Shown here: piece after piece, positions 16,044 through 23,941 of the stretch
Layout: each line of letters begins with the position of its first letter
Numbering within the stretch: the first letter of the stretch is position 1
Source of the DNA: Myxococcales bacterium
GTDB lineage: Bacteria; Myxococcota_A; Polyangia; Polyangiales; Polyangiaceae
Direction: 5' to 3'
Length of the DNA: 38,184 bases
Assembly (NCBI GenBank): GCA_013297655.1
Contig: JAAFHV010000063.1
Coordinates: 1 to 38,184, forward strand
Translations under genes and position numbers: made by a program
Notes under the pieces: model-generated
The model's input: only the letters and a program-made list of their open reading frames with translations
What the model was told of the DNA's origin: nothing
Database searches by the model: none

Positions 16044-16643
16044 ATGACGATCGCCTTCACCACGAAGATGGGAGTGCCCTTCGACGGACCCGTCGATCTC
16101 GAGCGCGTGCTCCGCGAGCTCCCGCCCGAGTACCAGATGAAGGGCATGTTCTTCGAGCGCCAGCGCACGGTCCTCGGCCCCGCGTGGACCGGGTTCCGCG
16201 AGAGCCTCTCGCGCCCACCTGCCCGCGCGTATGCCAACTTCGAGCGATACCCCACGAGCGACTACTTGAAGCTCCTCACCCGCGTGGCGGAGGATCGTTT
16301 CGGCAAGGGGAAGTCGCGTGAAGGGGTGCGCCTCTTGGCGCGCGGCGACGTGGAGGTGTTCACGTCGACGACGCTCGGCCGCGTCACCTTCGCGATGCTG
16401 CGCGAGCCCGGTGCCGCCCTCCTACGCTACCCCGACGTCTCCGGTGTGCTCGTTCACGGGCCAAAAATAGGCGCAAAGCGATCCGGGGACCGCGCCGTCA
16501 CCGTGACCTACACGCGCTACCACGGGCTCGTGGAGTACGTCGTCGGCGCCCTCGAGGGGCTCGTCGCCGCGTTCGACGAAGAGCCGCGCCTCGACGTCAA
16601 GCGTACGACCACGGGCGTGCTCTCCCTCGACGTAACCTGGTAG
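16044..16643 (+). CDS. DUF2378 (TIGR02265) family protein
   Basis: The 199-residue protein matches the myxobacterial DUF2378/TIGR02265 pattern. It has GMFFERQRTVLGPAWTGFRE near the N-terminus, YANFERYPTSDYLKLLTRVA, a LARGDVEVFTSTTLGRVTFA stretch, and a C-terminal VEYVVGALEGLVAAF helix. The family is known essentially from myxobacteria, where it occurs in many paralogs; its function is unknown. No signal peptide is seen, so it is probably cytoplasmic. The gene lies 27 bp after the lipoprotein at 14748 and converges on the DUF4139-like gene, with a GC-rich hairpin in the 24 bp between the two stops. Confidence 0.82.
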   Translation: MTIAFTTKMGVPFDGPVDLERVLRELPPEYQMKGMFFERQRTVLGPAWTGFRESLSRPPARAYANFERYPTSDYLKLLTRVAEDRFGKGKSREGVRLLARGDVEVFTSTTLGRVTFAMLREPGAALLRYPDVSGVLVHGPKIGAKRSGDRAVTVTYTRYHGLVEYVVGALEGLVAAFDEEPRLDVKRTTTGVLSLDVTW

Positions 16644-18636: not shown

Positions 18637-19521
18637 ATGACGACGATGAACGACAAGACCGTGCTCGTGACCGGCGCGAACCAAGGCATCGGCCGGGAGA
18701 CGGCGAAGGCCCTCGCCGCGATGGGCGCGCGCACCCTGCTCGTGTGTCGAAATAGGGAGAAGGGCATCGTCGCGCGCGACGAGATCGTGAAGAGCGGTGG
18801 CAAAGCAGAGCTCTTCGTCGCCGACTTGGGTCTGCACGGCGAGGTGCGCCGCGTCGCGAGGGAGGTGCGCGAGAAGCACCCCGTGCTCGACGTTCTGGTG
18901 AACAACGCCGGCGTCTTGGTCACCGAGCGAAGGGTCACCCGCGACGGCTACGAAGAGACGCTCGCGATCAATCACCTCGCCTACTTCCTACTCACCCACG
19001 AGCTCTTGGAGCCGCTCTCCAAGGCCCCCTCCGCCCGGATCGTGAACGTGTCCTCGCGCGCTCACCGCCGCGCGAAGCTTCGTTTCGACGATATCCAATT
19101 TTCTCGCGGATACCCGGCGCTGCAGGTCTATAGCCACTCCAAGCTCATGAACGTGCTCTTCACGTACGAGCTCGCGCGCCGCCTCGCCGGCACGAGCATC
19201 ACGGTGAATTGCCTCCACCCCGGCGTCATCGCGTCTGGCTTCGGGCAGACCTACGGCGGCATCGTGGCGCTTGCCTGGAAGCTCGCGCGGCCCTTCCTTC
19301 TCACCCCCGCCGAGGGCGCGAAGACTCAAATCTATCTCGCGTCGTCCCCCGCGGTCCAAGGCGTGACCGGCCGCTACTTCGACAAGTGCAGAGCGGTCCG
19401 TTCGAGCAGCAAGAGTTACGACGTAACCGCACAAAAGAAGCTCTGGGAGATCTCCGAGGCGATCGTCTTCGGGAACGACAAGGGCCACTGGGACAGCTAC
19501 GCCAAACCGAACGTCACGTAA
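18637..19521 (+). CDS. SDR-family NAD(P)-dependent oxidoreductase (retinol-dehydrogenase-like)
   Basis: This 294-residue classical/extended SDR has the nucleotide-binding motif TGANQGIG near residues 12-19, 'ADLGLHGEV' (Asp-Leu adenine pocket), NNAG at the end of beta4, 'VNVSSRAH' with the catalytic Ser, and YSHSK (Tyr and Lys of the catalytic triad). The 'HPGVIASGFG' segment and overall length resemble the retinol dehydrogenase/WW-domain oxidoreductase-like group, which reduce or oxidise hydrophobic carbonyls or alcohols; the true substrate is unknown. It is presumably cytoplasmic and uses NADP(H), given NR after the second strand. The gene follows the outer-membrane protein by 23 bp, possibly as one transcript, and converges with the Clp adaptor gene. 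GAGGAA precedes the ATG by about 12 bases. Confidence 0.93.
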   Translation: MTTMNDKTVLVTGANQGIGRETAKALAAMGARTLLVCRNREKGIVARDEIVKSGGKAELFVADLGLHGEVRRVAREVREKHPVLDVLVNNAGVLVTERRVTRDGYEETLAINHLAYFLLTHELLEPLSKAPSARIVNVSSRAHRRAKLRFDDIQFSRGYPALQVYSHSKLMNVLFTYELARRLAGTSITVNCLHPGVIASGFGQTYGGIVALAWKLARPFLLTPAEGAKTQIYLASSPAVQGVTGRYFDKCRAVRSSSKSYDVTAQKKLWEISEAIVFGNDKGHWDSYAKPNVT

Positions 19522-19560: not shown

Positions 19561-20331
19561 TTAGGCTTTGCCGAGGTAGAACCGCAGCGGCGCCTTGCGT
19601 GTGTCGGCGTGTTTCTTCGCGAGGGCGAGGTGCGCTTCGGCCTCCGAACGGGCATACGTGCCGACCCGCGCGTGGCCCTCGTAGTGCGTCGTCATCATGA
19701 CGTACCACGCGCGGCGCACCGGGACCGCGAACCCTTGCTCGAGGATGCGCATGACGTCTTCCATCGTCGAGGTCGCGTCGTCGAGCGTCCACACCGAGAC
19801 GCGCGCGTCGTCGGCGCCCGCTTTCTCGGCGAGCGGCTCTGTCAGCTTCGCGTCGAAGGCCGAAAAATCGAGGCCGAGCGCGGCCAGCAGGCGCGACGTC
19901 TCGCCCTCCGTGGAGGCCAGGGCGGCGAGCACGTCGCCGAGCGAAATCGTGGGGCGGAGGTGGCGACGCGAGCGCTCCAGGGCGTGAGCGAGCACCTGCG
20001 CATGACGCGGGGAGAGCAGCCCCGCGCGCGCCTCCGCCACCACCTCGGGCCGCGCGAGCGAGAGCAACAGCGCTTCACGGAGCTTCTCGAGCGCGAAACC
20101 GGGCTGCGTCCCGAGCTTCTCCACGAGCAAATCGTTCTCGAGGGCGGCGAGCAGAACGCGCTCCGGGGTCGCGTGGAGCTGCCCATAAACGAGCGCGTCC
20201 TGCTCGGCGAGGGTCATCACCACCCGTGCGTCGTTCGCGAGCGGGTAACGATCGAGATCACGAGAGAGCACCCGGACGTGCTTGGGGAACACCCGAGAGA
20301 GAGCCGACGCGACGCGACCGAGGATGCTCAT
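19561..20331 (-). CDS. Clp_N-ClpS fusion: probable Clp protease adaptor
   Basis: The 256-residue protein joins two Clp modules. Residues ~15-150 form a Clp_N-type repeat pair (MTLAEQDALVYGQLHATPER, VLLAALEND; LSPRHAQVLAHALERSRRHL, TISLGDVLAALASTEGETSR). Residues ~172-254 match ClpS: VSVWTLDDATSTMEDVMRIL, YVMMTTHYEGHARVGTYARS, EAEAHLALAKKHA. Compared with E. coli ClpS (VNDDYTPME, VHYQGKAICG), the two Asp, Thr, Met-Glu and HYxG residues are kept. The N-degron-contacting Asn is replaced by Leu, and one residue is inserted before Met-Glu. ClpS delivers N-degron substrates to ClpAP by docking on the ClpA N-domain; here the protein carries an N-domain of its own. The ATG at 20331 lacks a clear Shine-Dalgarno, and the frame is open 47 codons further. 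No Clp ATPase is nearby. Confidence 0.82.
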   Translation of the reverse strand: MSILGRVASALSRVFPKHVRVLSRDLDRYPLANDARVVMTLAEQDALVYGQLHATPERVLLAALENDLLVEKLGTQPGFALEKLREALLLSLARPEVVAEARAGLLSPRHAQVLAHALERSRRHLRPTISLGDVLAALASTEGETSRLLAALGLDFSAFDAKLTEPLAEKAGADDARVSVWTLDDATSTMEDVMRILEQGFAVPVRRAWYVMMTTHYEGHARVGTYARSEAEAHLALAKKHADTRKAPLRFYLGKA

Positions 20332-20501: not shown

Positions 20502-21938
20502 ATGAACGTCACGCTCTTGCGTCCGGCGATGTGGCTCCTCGCGTTAGCGACCGCGACCGCGGCCTGCACGAGCCCGCGCGGCGAAGCCCCGAAGACCGTG
20601 CCCGCCGAGGCAAAACCCACGAGCGCGAGCGGGCAGGCGTCGGACACCGCTGACGCAGGTCTCGCGGCGAGCGCGAAGGCCGGCGCCTTTGCGGCTCCGC
20701 TCGTGGCTCAGAAGGACGCCGACGGCAACGACGACCTCGGCCGCGAGCCACCGTCGAGCGCGCCGCTCTTCGAGCAGGCCACGTTCACCAAGGTCGGTCG
20801 CGCCCCTCTCGGGCTCCTTCGCATCTGCGACCTGAAGGCCTTCGCGGGAAAGCTGTACTCTGCACACGCAAACATGCCCCTCGGCAGCGACGGCGCGACG
20901 ATCACGACCTATCGCCCCGACGAGGCGAAGGCGCCGTTCGCCGTCGCGTTCGATTGGAATCGCGCGGGTGAGCCCACCAAGGGCGGCGGCGGCGGGCAAG
21001 GTTTTTTGCGGGTGCACGCGATCGACGGCAGGCTCTACGTCCCCGACGCCGATCCGCCGTACGGGGGGCTCGGGGCGGTCGATCACGGCACCGAGGGGTA
21101 CGTCTTCGTGTCCGACAAGAGTGGCACGTTCGCGCGCGCGCGTTATCCCCACGCGATGCTGCCTGGCCTCCCGAACGCCGAAGATCGCGCTGGCGCTTCG
21201 GTGCTCCCGCGGGCGTATCACGTGCTCGACGTGGTGAAGTTTCGCGGCCACGTCTACGCCTCGACGGGCTCGGTCCCTCCCGAGGCGCGCGCGTGGCAGG
21301 GGCCCTCGCCTGGCGCGCTCCACGTGGCGAACGCCGATTTATCGCGCTTCACGTACGCGCTCGGATTCCCCACGCCCTACCCCGGCGGCGTGTGGCGGCT
21401 CACCTACATGACCCGCTTCAAAGACATGCTCTTCGCGGGGATACAGGATTACGACGGAAAGAGCCCGTGGGACTACGCTCGTTTCACCCTCCCCGCGGAG
21501 GCGGGCGGCCGCGACGTGCTCCGCGAGAGCGACGCGACGGGCAAGCGTGTCACCGATCTCGGCGCGGCGTTCACCCTTCGTTGGTATACCGACCGCGGCG
21601 CCCTCTATTGGATCGCCGGCACGCACGACGGCACGATCGCGCTCCGAAGGACCACCGACGGCGACACCTGGGACACGATCGACTTGCCGCCAACCCTCGG
21701 GAGGCCGACCGACATCGTGCGCTTCCGTGGCTCCCTCGTGGTCATGATGGAGCGAGGCCTCGCCGCGATCGACGAAGGTGGCAAGACACGCGCGCTCGCC
21801 ACGATCACCGAGAAAAAGACGCCCTTTGCGATCGACGACATCCTCTGCGCCGCCCCTCTCGGCGTTCTCGACGACAAGCTCTACGTGGGAGGCCAGAACG
21901 GGAGTGGGCTTTACCGGATCGATCCGAAGACGGACTAA
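20502..21938 (+). CDS. Lipoprotein, propeller-like
   Basis: The 478-residue lipoprotein has signal LLRPAMWLLALATATAAC (lipobox-like TAAC) and an Ala/Ser/Thr linker to about residue 80. The body shows propeller-type strands: LLRICDLKAFAGKLYSAHAN, FLRVHAIDGRLYVPDADPPY, VLDVVKFRGHVYASTGSVPP, LTYMTRFKDMLFAGIQDYDG, RTTDGDTWDTIDLPPTLGRP and FRGSLVVMMERGLAAIDE. The 'G.lY.a..dg.ti.....dg..W' pattern resembles Kelch/BNR-type exported propellers. Function is not known. The ATG at 20502 is chosen for the signal peptide; an in-frame ATG at 20466 is an alternative. It is divergent from the Clp adaptor gene (170 bp between them) and convergent with the vWA lipoprotein, with only 17 bp between the stops. 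Confidence 0.82.
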   Translation: MNVTLLRPAMWLLALATATAACTSPRGEAPKTVPAEAKPTSASGQASDTADAGLAASAKAGAFAAPLVAQKDADGNDDLGREPPSSAPLFEQATFTKVGRAPLGLLRICDLKAFAGKLYSAHANMPLGSDGATITTYRPDEAKAPFAVAFDWNRAGEPTKGGGGGQGFLRVHAIDGRLYVPDADPPYGGLGAVDHGTEGYVFVSDKSGTFARARYPHAMLPGLPNAEDRAGASVLPRAYHVLDVVKFRGHVYASTGSVPPEARAWQGPSPGALHVANADLSRFTYALGFPTPYPGGVWRLTYMTRFKDMLFAGIQDYDGKSPWDYARFTLPAEAGGRDVLRESDATGKRVTDLGAAFTLRWYTDRGALYWIAGTHDGTIALRRTTDGDTWDTIDLPPTLGRPTDIVRFRGSLVVMMERGLAAIDEGGKTRALATITEKKTPFAIDDILCAAPLGVLDDKLYVGGQNGSGLYRIDPKTD

Positions 21939-21955: not shown

Positions 21956-23941
21956 TCAGCGGCGTACATGCCGCCCGATGGTGTCCACGATCGAGCGCAC
22001 CATCGGGCGGTATCCATAGTCCGGATCGGTCGCCCTCGCCGACGGATCGGTGACGGGAGCGCAGATCGAGGAGACGCTCGCCTGACCCTTCAACGAAAGC
22101 GCGAGCTCGATCGGACGAGTCGACGGAGTGGCCTTTCCGTGCGTTCGTATTTTGCCGTCGCAAATGGGGATATCGGAGGCGCCATCGCACGGACATGACT
22201 CGTCTTTGCCGTCGCACGGGCGCGGCGTAGGGAGCGGAAAGGTGCACGCGTATTGGAGCTCGTGCTTCTTCGTGTCGAAGTCGCGATCGGCCGATCGCGA
22301 CGGCGCGACAGGCCGTCCCACGCGCAGCAGCGTCGATGGCCACATGCGAGGATCGATCCCGAGAGATTGGTATCGATAGGGGTCCTCGCCCACGAGCGGG
22401 CGCAGCTCCTCTTCGTTCGGCGCGCGGTCGTGGACGAGATCGTACGGCACGCCGCCGAGCACGGCGACCAGAATGTCAGTCGGCTGGCGCGGCCCCTTCG
22501 CCAGGGTGCACAGCTTCTCGTCGCGGATACCGTTCGCGGTGGAGGGCAGGTCCTTGGCGAACAGCGGATTTCGGCACTTCGCCTGCCCCGTATACTCACC
22601 CGTCGGGGCGTGCTCGGTGTCCAGGTCTGGAACTTGGGACTTCGTAAAGCCGTCGACGTACCGTTTCAGGGGATAGCGGGGGTCGAGTCCGAAGCGAAGC
22701 TTCATGTTGTGGAAGCGGACCGCGAGGTCGTCGTCGTCCTTCTCGTGAAAGCCCTCGTTCTCTCTGCACGCAGGGTCGGCCTGCACGGCCGGATTGGCGC
22801 GGAATCCGCACGAGGTGCACGCGGAGCTCGTCGGATCCTGAAAGCACGAGCGGGTCGCCTTGGGCGCGGTAGACCCGCCGCGTGACGGATCTCGCTGCGC
22901 GCCAGGTACGTCGGCGGAGGTGGGAAATGTGCTCCTCAGAAACATGCTTCCCTGGCCCCCGACGGACCACGGATCGAGCGACGCGTCGTCGCGATCGGTG
23001 ACGAAGACGACCATGACGGTGGAGTCGGGGCGAAGGAACGCCGCGCGCTGCGCGATGATGGTCTCGTCGAGCGCTGGTGTCTCCGGTGCCCGCGGCGCGT
23101 TCGTCCAGCGCGTGACGTCGTGCGGCGCTGGCGCGACGAGGAATCGATAGGCGGCTTCGAGCGGCGAAGCGAACGGACAACCGGAGGTGCCCAATCCCTC
23201 GATAAGCCCGATGGTGTCGCTCACGAACGCGCCCAGATCGTCGTAGTGGGCCCCGCCCTCCGACATCTTGGCCATCGTGTTGACGGGGCTGGGTGGGAAC
23301 CAAGCGAGGTAGTTCGCGACCGCCCCCACCACGGGAGTCTGTTTGGGCCCACGCCGATTGAGGAGCCGACCCGCGTCGTTCTTGTGCGCATTCAGGTGCG
23401 GATTGTGCGAATCCGCCACGTCGTCCCGGCACTGCTCGGTGCCATACCCCCCGAGGGAGCTCGAGAGCAGGCCGACGTGCATATCGACGACCGGGTCCCG
23501 GAGCGGCGTGCCAACCGCGCACTCGCGCCCCCTCGGCGCCGTCGGATCCACGCGATCTCCCGTGGCATTTCCCTCGTCGTCCATACACGGCGGGCGCGTG
23601 AGCTCGTTCAAGAGCTCCGGCACCGCCTCCGCGAACAGCGCTTGTTTTTCCGCCATATGCGGCGCGTTATCGACGACGAAGAGAAGGTCCAGCTTGTCCA
23701 TTTTGGCGGCGGGTACGGTCGCGCAGTGCGGCACCTTGCACGCGAGCCCGCGCGGGGTGCACCTGCACATATTGCAGTAGTCCGCGCCGAATCCGGTCTC
23801 GCCCGGAGCGTAGGACTTGCCGTCGAGATGGCAGAGGGTCGTTCCGCGGACGGACTGACACGCCGAGGCGAGGGTGAGCATCGTCGCCAGTCCAATCGCG
23901 ACCACGAAGCGACGGAGCGCGGGTTGGAGCGCGGAGGACAT
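21956..23941 (-). CDS. Lipoprotein with VWC-like module and vWA-like domain
   Basis: The 661-residue lipoprotein starts MSSALQPALRRFVVAIGLAT; its lipobox is ASAC (Cys28). A Cys-rich module follows (CHLDGKSYAPGETGFGADYC, then CRCTPRGLACKVPHC), spaced like a von Willebrand factor C or pacifastin-type domain. Next comes a vWA-type fold: KLDLLFVVDNAPHMAEKQAL, PVVDMHVGLLSSSLGGYGTE and STVMVVFVTDRDDASLDPWS. In the first metal-site motif (usually DxSxS) both serines are replaced (DNAPH), so metal binding may be lost or altered. This layout recurs in myxobacterial surface lipoproteins; a ligand-binding or adhesion role is inferred. A perfect 13-bp inverted repeat lies inside the last codons (21971-22010). 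Confidence 0.85.
   Translation of the reverse strand: MSSALQPALRRFVVAIGLATMLTLASACQSVRGTTLCHLDGKSYAPGETGFGADYCNMCRCTPRGLACKVPHCATVPAAKMDKLDLLFVVDNAPHMAEKQALFAEAVPELLNELTRPPCMDDEGNATGDRVDPTAPRGRECAVGTPLRDPVVDMHVGLLSSSLGGYGTEQCRDDVADSHNPHLNAHKNDAGRLLNRRGPKQTPVVGAVANYLAWFPPSPVNTMAKMSEGGAHYDDLGAFVSDTIGLIEGLGTSGCPFASPLEAAYRFLVAPAPHDVTRWTNAPRAPETPALDETIIAQRAAFLRPDSTVMVVFVTDRDDASLDPWSVGGQGSMFLRSTFPTSADVPGAQRDPSRGGSTAPKATRSCFQDPTSSACTSCGFRANPAVQADPACRENEGFHEKDDDDLAVRFHNMKLRFGLDPRYPLKRYVDGFTKSQVPDLDTEHAPTGEYTGQAKCRNPLFAKDLPSTANGIRDEKLCTLAKGPRQPTDILVAVLGGVPYDLVHDRAPNEEELRPLVGEDPYRYQSLGIDPRMWPSTLLRVGRPVAPSRSADRDFDTKKHELQYACTFPLPTPRPCDGKDESCPCDGASDIPICDGKIRTHGKATPSTRPIELALSLKGQASVSSICAPVTDPSARATDPDYGYRPMVRSIVDTIGRHVRR
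21971..22010. terminator. 13-bp perfect inverted repeat at a convergent gene end, inside coding sequence
   Basis: CCGCCCGATGGTG (21971-21983) and CACCATCGGGCGG (21998-22010) are exact complements with a 14-base loop. They lie in the last ~20 codons of the minus-strand vWA gene and 33 bp past the stop of the plus-strand lipoprotein (21938). The position suggests a transcription terminator for the plus-strand gene and possibly for both; no T-tract follows. Confidence 0.42.

Follow-up and report, generated by a model that had tools for sequence, protein, structure and literature searches.

Gene organization of the locus

The analyzed window is a 38,184-nucleotide stretch of a myxobacterial genome (Myxococcales bacterium, contig JAAFHV010000063.1). 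On its minus strand, an open reading frame running from ATG to stop encodes a protein of 256 residues, which is composed of an N-terminal amphipathic segment, a Clp_N domain, a short linker, and a C-terminal ClpS domain (Table 1). With a codon-position GC content of 0.75/0.46/0.87, the frame looks like a genuine high-GC gene. There is no preferred start codon further upstream; a homolog from the same genome (L004) opens with the same MSI- stretch. The gene is flanked downstream by a convergent SDR gene (18637-19521, plus strand) and upstream by a divergent gene that begins at about position 20502 on the plus strand. We rejected the possibility that a canonical ClpS protein was misread as a fusion through the choice of frame or start: the homologs share a common order and length, and a separate canonical clpS adjoins clpA in the same genome.

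Two other genes of the window have recognizable features. Positions 16044-16643 (plus strand) encode a DUF2378 protein (63 bits), from a family named as being of unknown function. Positions 21956-23941 (minus strand) encode a 661-residue protein whose N-terminus is signal-like and contains cysteine; close to its start, the protein weakly matches von Willebrand type C.

Table 1 Features of the fusion gene and of the protein that it encodes.
Feature	Position in window	Strand	Remark or evidence
Clp_N-ClpS fusion gene, 256 aa	19561..20331	-	apparently single
N-terminal segment, residues 1-25, cationic amphipathic	20257..20331	-	hydrophobic moment ~0.7; AlphaFold low confidence at residues 1-14
ClpA-type N-domain, two Clp_N repeats, residues 30-166	19834..20244	-	profile search, hhalign, AlphaFold model
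Linker, about residues 161-174	19810..19851	-	low model confidence
ClpS domain, residues 177-256	19564..19803	-	Pfam, alignments, AlphaFold model

Domain architecture and predicted fold

The sequence-only reading of this locus had proposed a fusion of a ClpA/ClpB-type N-domain with ClpS, in which each half should be recognized by its own profile. The ClpS half passes Pfam PF02617 at residues 178-251 with 49.3 bits (E 4.2e-13, cut-off 23), and its best score of 35.7 bits lies below the NCBIfam ClpS equivalog cut-off of 143. The Clp_N half of the window protein alone falls short of the Pfam PF02861 threshold (12.9 vs 20.7 bits). The same Pfam model matches 7 of 11 relatives at E-values up to 1, the best being 2e-8, and the NCBIfam ClpB model weakly touches residues 35-165 of the window protein (E 0.012). 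Despite its sub-threshold Pfam score, the Clp_N half is backed by more sensitive comparisons. A profile built from nine window-like relatives, three of them from the same genome and the rest from the same bacterial family, picks up the N-domain chains of E. coli ClpA across the entire domain with an E-value of ~1e-8, ahead of ClpB (4e-6) and ClpC (3e-3). With hhalign, the match to 69 canonical ClpA N-domains reaches a probability of 97.5% over 128 columns. No AAA domain was matched by Pfam in the 256-residue protein, which thus lacks the unfoldase domains of Hsp100/ClpA.

The AlphaFold2 model of the window protein, calculated from an eight-sequence alignment, has a mean pLDDT of 78 and a pTM of 0.76, and is uncertain at residues 1-14 and 161-173. 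Residues 30-166 of the model align with the ClpA N-domain (1r6o_B) with a Z-score of 15.3 over 132 residues. Residues 172-256 align with ClpS with Z-scores of 14.4-14.7, and superpose on a peptide-bound ClpS at about 1.3 Å over 81 residues. A second AlphaFold model, of a relative from Kofleriaceae, agrees with that of the window protein. The structural Z-scores do not separate ClpA-, ClpB-, and ClpC-type N-domains, and a ClpB- or ClpC-type N-domain was rejected because its sequence match is weaker than that of ClpA. The profiles and models together show that the Clp_N-ClpS fusion is real. Judged by sequence, its N-domain is of the ClpA type, so that both halves of the ClpA-N/ClpS complex are joined in one chain.

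Distribution and evolution of the fusion family

At least 35 full-length fusions were identified when 317 genomes of the class and 282 of the phylum were searched. Of these, 34 belong to the class, and the remaining one comes from another part of the phylum Myxococcota; these counts are lower bounds, since the best candidates per genome were scored. The class is taken here to be Polyangia, on the strength of the Kofleriaceae titles of some loci and of where that family is known to belong. When one sub-group of the family was used to scan 84,980 species genomes, seven loci were retrieved, all in metagenome assemblies labeled as myxobacterial or 'Delta-/Proteobacteria', including two named Kofleriaceae.

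In the genome that contains the window, ClpS-type genes number four. One is canonical and immediately precedes clpA; the other three are fusions, 256, 233, and 342 residues long. The 342-residue fusion (L002:703-1731, contig C520) carries an extra Clp_N-like copy and follows closely on a groEL gene of the same strand. Extra Clp_N copies are present in three members of the family.

In a tree of ClpS domains (82 columns, long branches), the fusion domains are placed apart from canonical ClpS, and 34 of the 35 group together with an SH-aLRT support of 93. A single origin of the fusions is thus likely from the sequences, but not proved. The dN/dS ratios among near relatives range from 0.17 to 0.77. 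The fusions form a fast-evolving family in which an old ClpS paralog is placed behind a ClpA-type N-domain. Across 20 fusion loci, no conserved operon partner was found except between near relatives. A first pattern search from an early family alignment yielded no stretch that was conserved enough. A mobile or viral origin was rejected, as there was no plasmid match and a search for close relatives found none in viral contigs.

Substrate pocket of the ClpS domain

In ClpS, the α-amino group of the bound peptide is held by the equivalents of E. coli Asn34, Asp36, and His66 (PMC12493166). Ungapped alignments with E. coli ClpS and with relatives of the fusion place Asp184 of the window protein at position 34, Asp185 at 35, Ala186 at 36, Ser188 at 38 (threonine in E. 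coli), Met190 at 40, and His216 at 66. His66 is therefore the only α-amino contact that is kept, with Asn34 replaced by aspartate and Asp36 by alanine. The retained pocket residues are Asp35, Met40, Val43, Met62, His66, and Leu99. The hydrophobic side-chain pocket and the Met40 gatekeeper of canonical ClpS are both present, although Val65 is replaced by threonine.

It had been suggested that the pocket asparagine is replaced by leucine while the HYxG motif is preserved. The motif is indeed intact, as His66-Tyr-Glu-Gly in the window protein and HYQG in E. coli. The leucine is located one residue earlier, at the position of E. coli Val33, and its assignment to the pocket was a one-residue alignment slip. 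Aligning the pocket residues within the family, as the sequence-only reading had advised, shows asparagine at position 34 in 22 of the 35 fusions, aspartate in 13, and leucine in none. The notion of an altered pocket is nevertheless upheld by the change of two of the three α-amino contacts. Asp35, threonine or serine at position 38, and Val43 occur in all 35 fusions, Leu99 in 34, His66 in 27, and Met62 in 25. In eight fusions His66 is replaced by aspartate, glutamate, or threonine. A further genome (G226) carries two fusions close together on the same strand (L102:1518-3095), which differ in the pocket (NDD...H vs NDH...D).

Docking surface between ClpS and the ClpA N-domain

When the two E. 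coli proteins are docked, Glu82 of ClpS pairs with Arg86 of ClpA, Lys84 pairs with Glu23, and Glu79 contacts Glu28 and Thr81 (PMC12493166). These positions are nearly invariant in canonical proteins of the phylum: Glu82, Lys84, and an acidic residue at position 79 are each present in 70 of 72 ClpS sequences, and ClpA has an acidic residue at position 23 and Glu28 in 70/70 and Arg86 in 69/70. In the fusions, Glu82 is kept in 8 of 35 and reversed to arginine or lysine in 16; position 84 is basic in 23 (lysine in 8, arginine in 15), and position 79 is acidic in 10. The N-domains of the fusions have an acidic residue 23 in 5 of 32, Glu28 in 9, and Arg86 in 8. The window protein has Ser, Glu, and His at ClpS positions 79, 82, and 84, one docking residue kept out of three, and retains two of the seven contact residues overall, Glu82 of ClpS and Glu28 of the ClpA N-domain.

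Among the near-invariant positions of canonical ClpS, the mean retention in the fusions is 26% for docking residues, 74% for pocket residues, and 75% for the others. The contrast is weaker on the N-domain side, where the alignment is less sure (23% for docking vs 46% for other conserved positions), and some of the pattern is simply what relaxed constraint would produce in a family that is divergent overall. According to the alignments, the family has lost most of this docking surface, on the ClpS half as well as on the N-domain half.

During delivery, canonical ClpS inserts its free N-terminal tail into the ClpA channel, and blocking the tail from the channel inhibits delivery (PMC9663308). 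In the fusion, the free tail is replaced by the folded Clp_N domain. The functions initially proposed for the fusion, namely self-binding, competition with ClpA, or a substrate-loading bridge, all rely on the canonical interface, which is mostly gone in both halves.

Predicted N-terminal membrane helix and host N-degron genes

The N-terminus of 21-24 of the 35 fusions is an uncharged hydrophobic stretch followed by one rich in arginine and lysine, as predicted for a membrane helix with the rest of the protein in the cytosol. In the place taken by the helix in most relatives, the window protein carries a stretch that is cationic and amphipathic, through which it may attach to the membrane.

Besides the canonical clpS-clpA pair, the genome encodes one Aat-type (Leu/Phe-transferase) and two Bpt-type transferase matches. 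Since this is the canonical N-degron gene set, N-degron proteins should exist in the host for the fusion to bind. The second arginyl/leucyl-transferase-type match (ATE_C), at C33:14919-15272, lies in a 421-residue frame, and the other transferase-type frame, on contig C2, has 277 residues. The genome contains four Hsp100-type reading frames with N-domains. Beyond ClpA and ClpB, two further Hsp100-type frames (L006 and L009, contigs C128 and C20) have divergent Clp_N domains and are possible alternative partners of the fusion.

Possible function of the fusion protein

In bacteria, the ClpS fold is known for reading N-degrons and passing the proteins that bear them to a protease. We tentatively propose, with somewhat less than even confidence, that the fusion binds N-degrons as a receptor but is not coupled to the standard ClpAP delivery route, and that it resides at or near the inner membrane and collects or shields N-degron proteins or passes them on. 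The ClpS half seems to have kept the capacity to bind protein N-termini; the docking surface for ClpA is mostly lost, and so is the free delivery tail. The N-terminal helix, predicted in most relatives and amphipathic in the window protein, would hold the fusion at or near the inner membrane. There, N-degron proteins would be gathered or protected by the fusion, which would compete for them with canonical ClpS. It is also possible that N-degron proteins are handed to a partner met via the diverged Clp_N half. We infer the binding of N-degrons from the pocket sequence, and sequestration would be its presumed outcome. The retention of most of the pocket in 35 relatives that have lost most of the docking residues argues for an uncoupled receptor, and the change of two of the three α-amino contacts and the eight relatives without His66 argue against a receptor function. 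Furthermore, the basic residue at position 84 in 23 of the 35 fusions may leave room for weak docking, and the fused partners could pack together without conserved salt bridges.

The same basic residue, together with the four Hsp100-type frames with N-domains, would suit an alternative delivery adaptor, in which substrates are chosen by the ClpS half, and an altered surface on either half docks to ClpA or another Hsp100 of the genome, perhaps gathering N-degron proteins at the membrane to be degraded. An adaptor made of two parts is known from plants (ClpF-ClpS1). We consider such an adaptor fairly unlikely, because little is left of the known docking contacts or of the free N-terminal tail, and the 20 fusion loci show no conserved linkage to any other gene. 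N-degron binding may instead have been lost, with the ClpS fold reused for another ligand or the two halves folding together and closing the pocket. Such a loss would account for Asp34 and Ala36 in the window protein, for the replacement of His66 in eight relatives, and for the long branches and dN/dS of up to 0.77. It is unlikely, however, in view of the invariant Asp35 and Val43, the frequent retention of Leu99 (34/35) and His66 (27/35), and the fit of the AlphaFold ClpS domain to peptide-bound ClpS (1.3 Å over 81 residues).

Mycobacterial ClpC2, a partial homolog of ClpC1 that contains its N-domain, sequesters cyclomarin (PMC10030653). With this precedent, and since the models structurally match the N-domains of ClpC1 and ClpC2, the Clp_N half could be a decoy for natural products that target Clp ATPases at their N-domains, the ClpS half being secondary. 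This is very improbable: by sequence, ClpA and not ClpC is the nearest match of the N-domain, the gene context is not conserved across the 20 loci, and ClpS is the better-conserved half.

If the fusion is an uncoupled receptor, the reading of N-degrons would be separated from degradation in a lineage in which the reader is fused to a copy of its own receptor domain, is often membrane-anchored, and is stripped of the residues and tail needed for delivery. The broader claim, that a family of membrane-tethered receptors reads N-termini without ClpAP delivery and that some myxobacteria protect or localize N-degron proteins instead of degrading them, is one that we regard as rather doubtful. Because both halves of the interface are changed within one chain, the fusion provides a clean test of the mutual dependence of ClpS and ClpA.

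Comparison with known Clp adaptors and N-domain proteins

Both domains are already known. For their fusion, no published description was found in the open-access papers searched, and an earlier one may exist elsewhere. The window protein has in common with the ClpS adaptor of ClpAP from E. coli and Caulobacter the fold (Z 14.4-14.7), the HYxG motif, and residues Asp35, Met40, Val43, Met62, His66, and Leu99. It differs in that its ClpS domain is placed behind a folded domain, has no free tail, and is not encoded next to clpA, and in the substitutions of Asn34 by aspartate, of Asp36 by alanine, and of most docking residues. The N-terminal half resembles the ClpA N-terminal domain in its two-repeat helical Clp_N fold, with a profile match (E ~1e-8) over the full domain, and the HG motif at the domain end is kept in many relatives. 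However, the fusion lacks AAA+ domains and has lost the acidic residue 23 and Arg86 of the docking site.

ClpN repeats fused to vWA proteins and insertions of L12/ClpS domains have been described in conflict systems (PMC7159879), a context different from that of the window fusion. Mycobacterial ClpC2 and plant ClpT also contain a Clp_N domain without AAA+ domains, but they have no ClpS, and their N-domains are nearer to the ClpC or plastid type. ClpS1 of Leptospira is likewise a divergent second ClpS beside a canonical one, with changes in the pocket and at Lys84; unlike the fusion, it is a stand-alone protein and keeps its N-terminal extension (PMC12493166).
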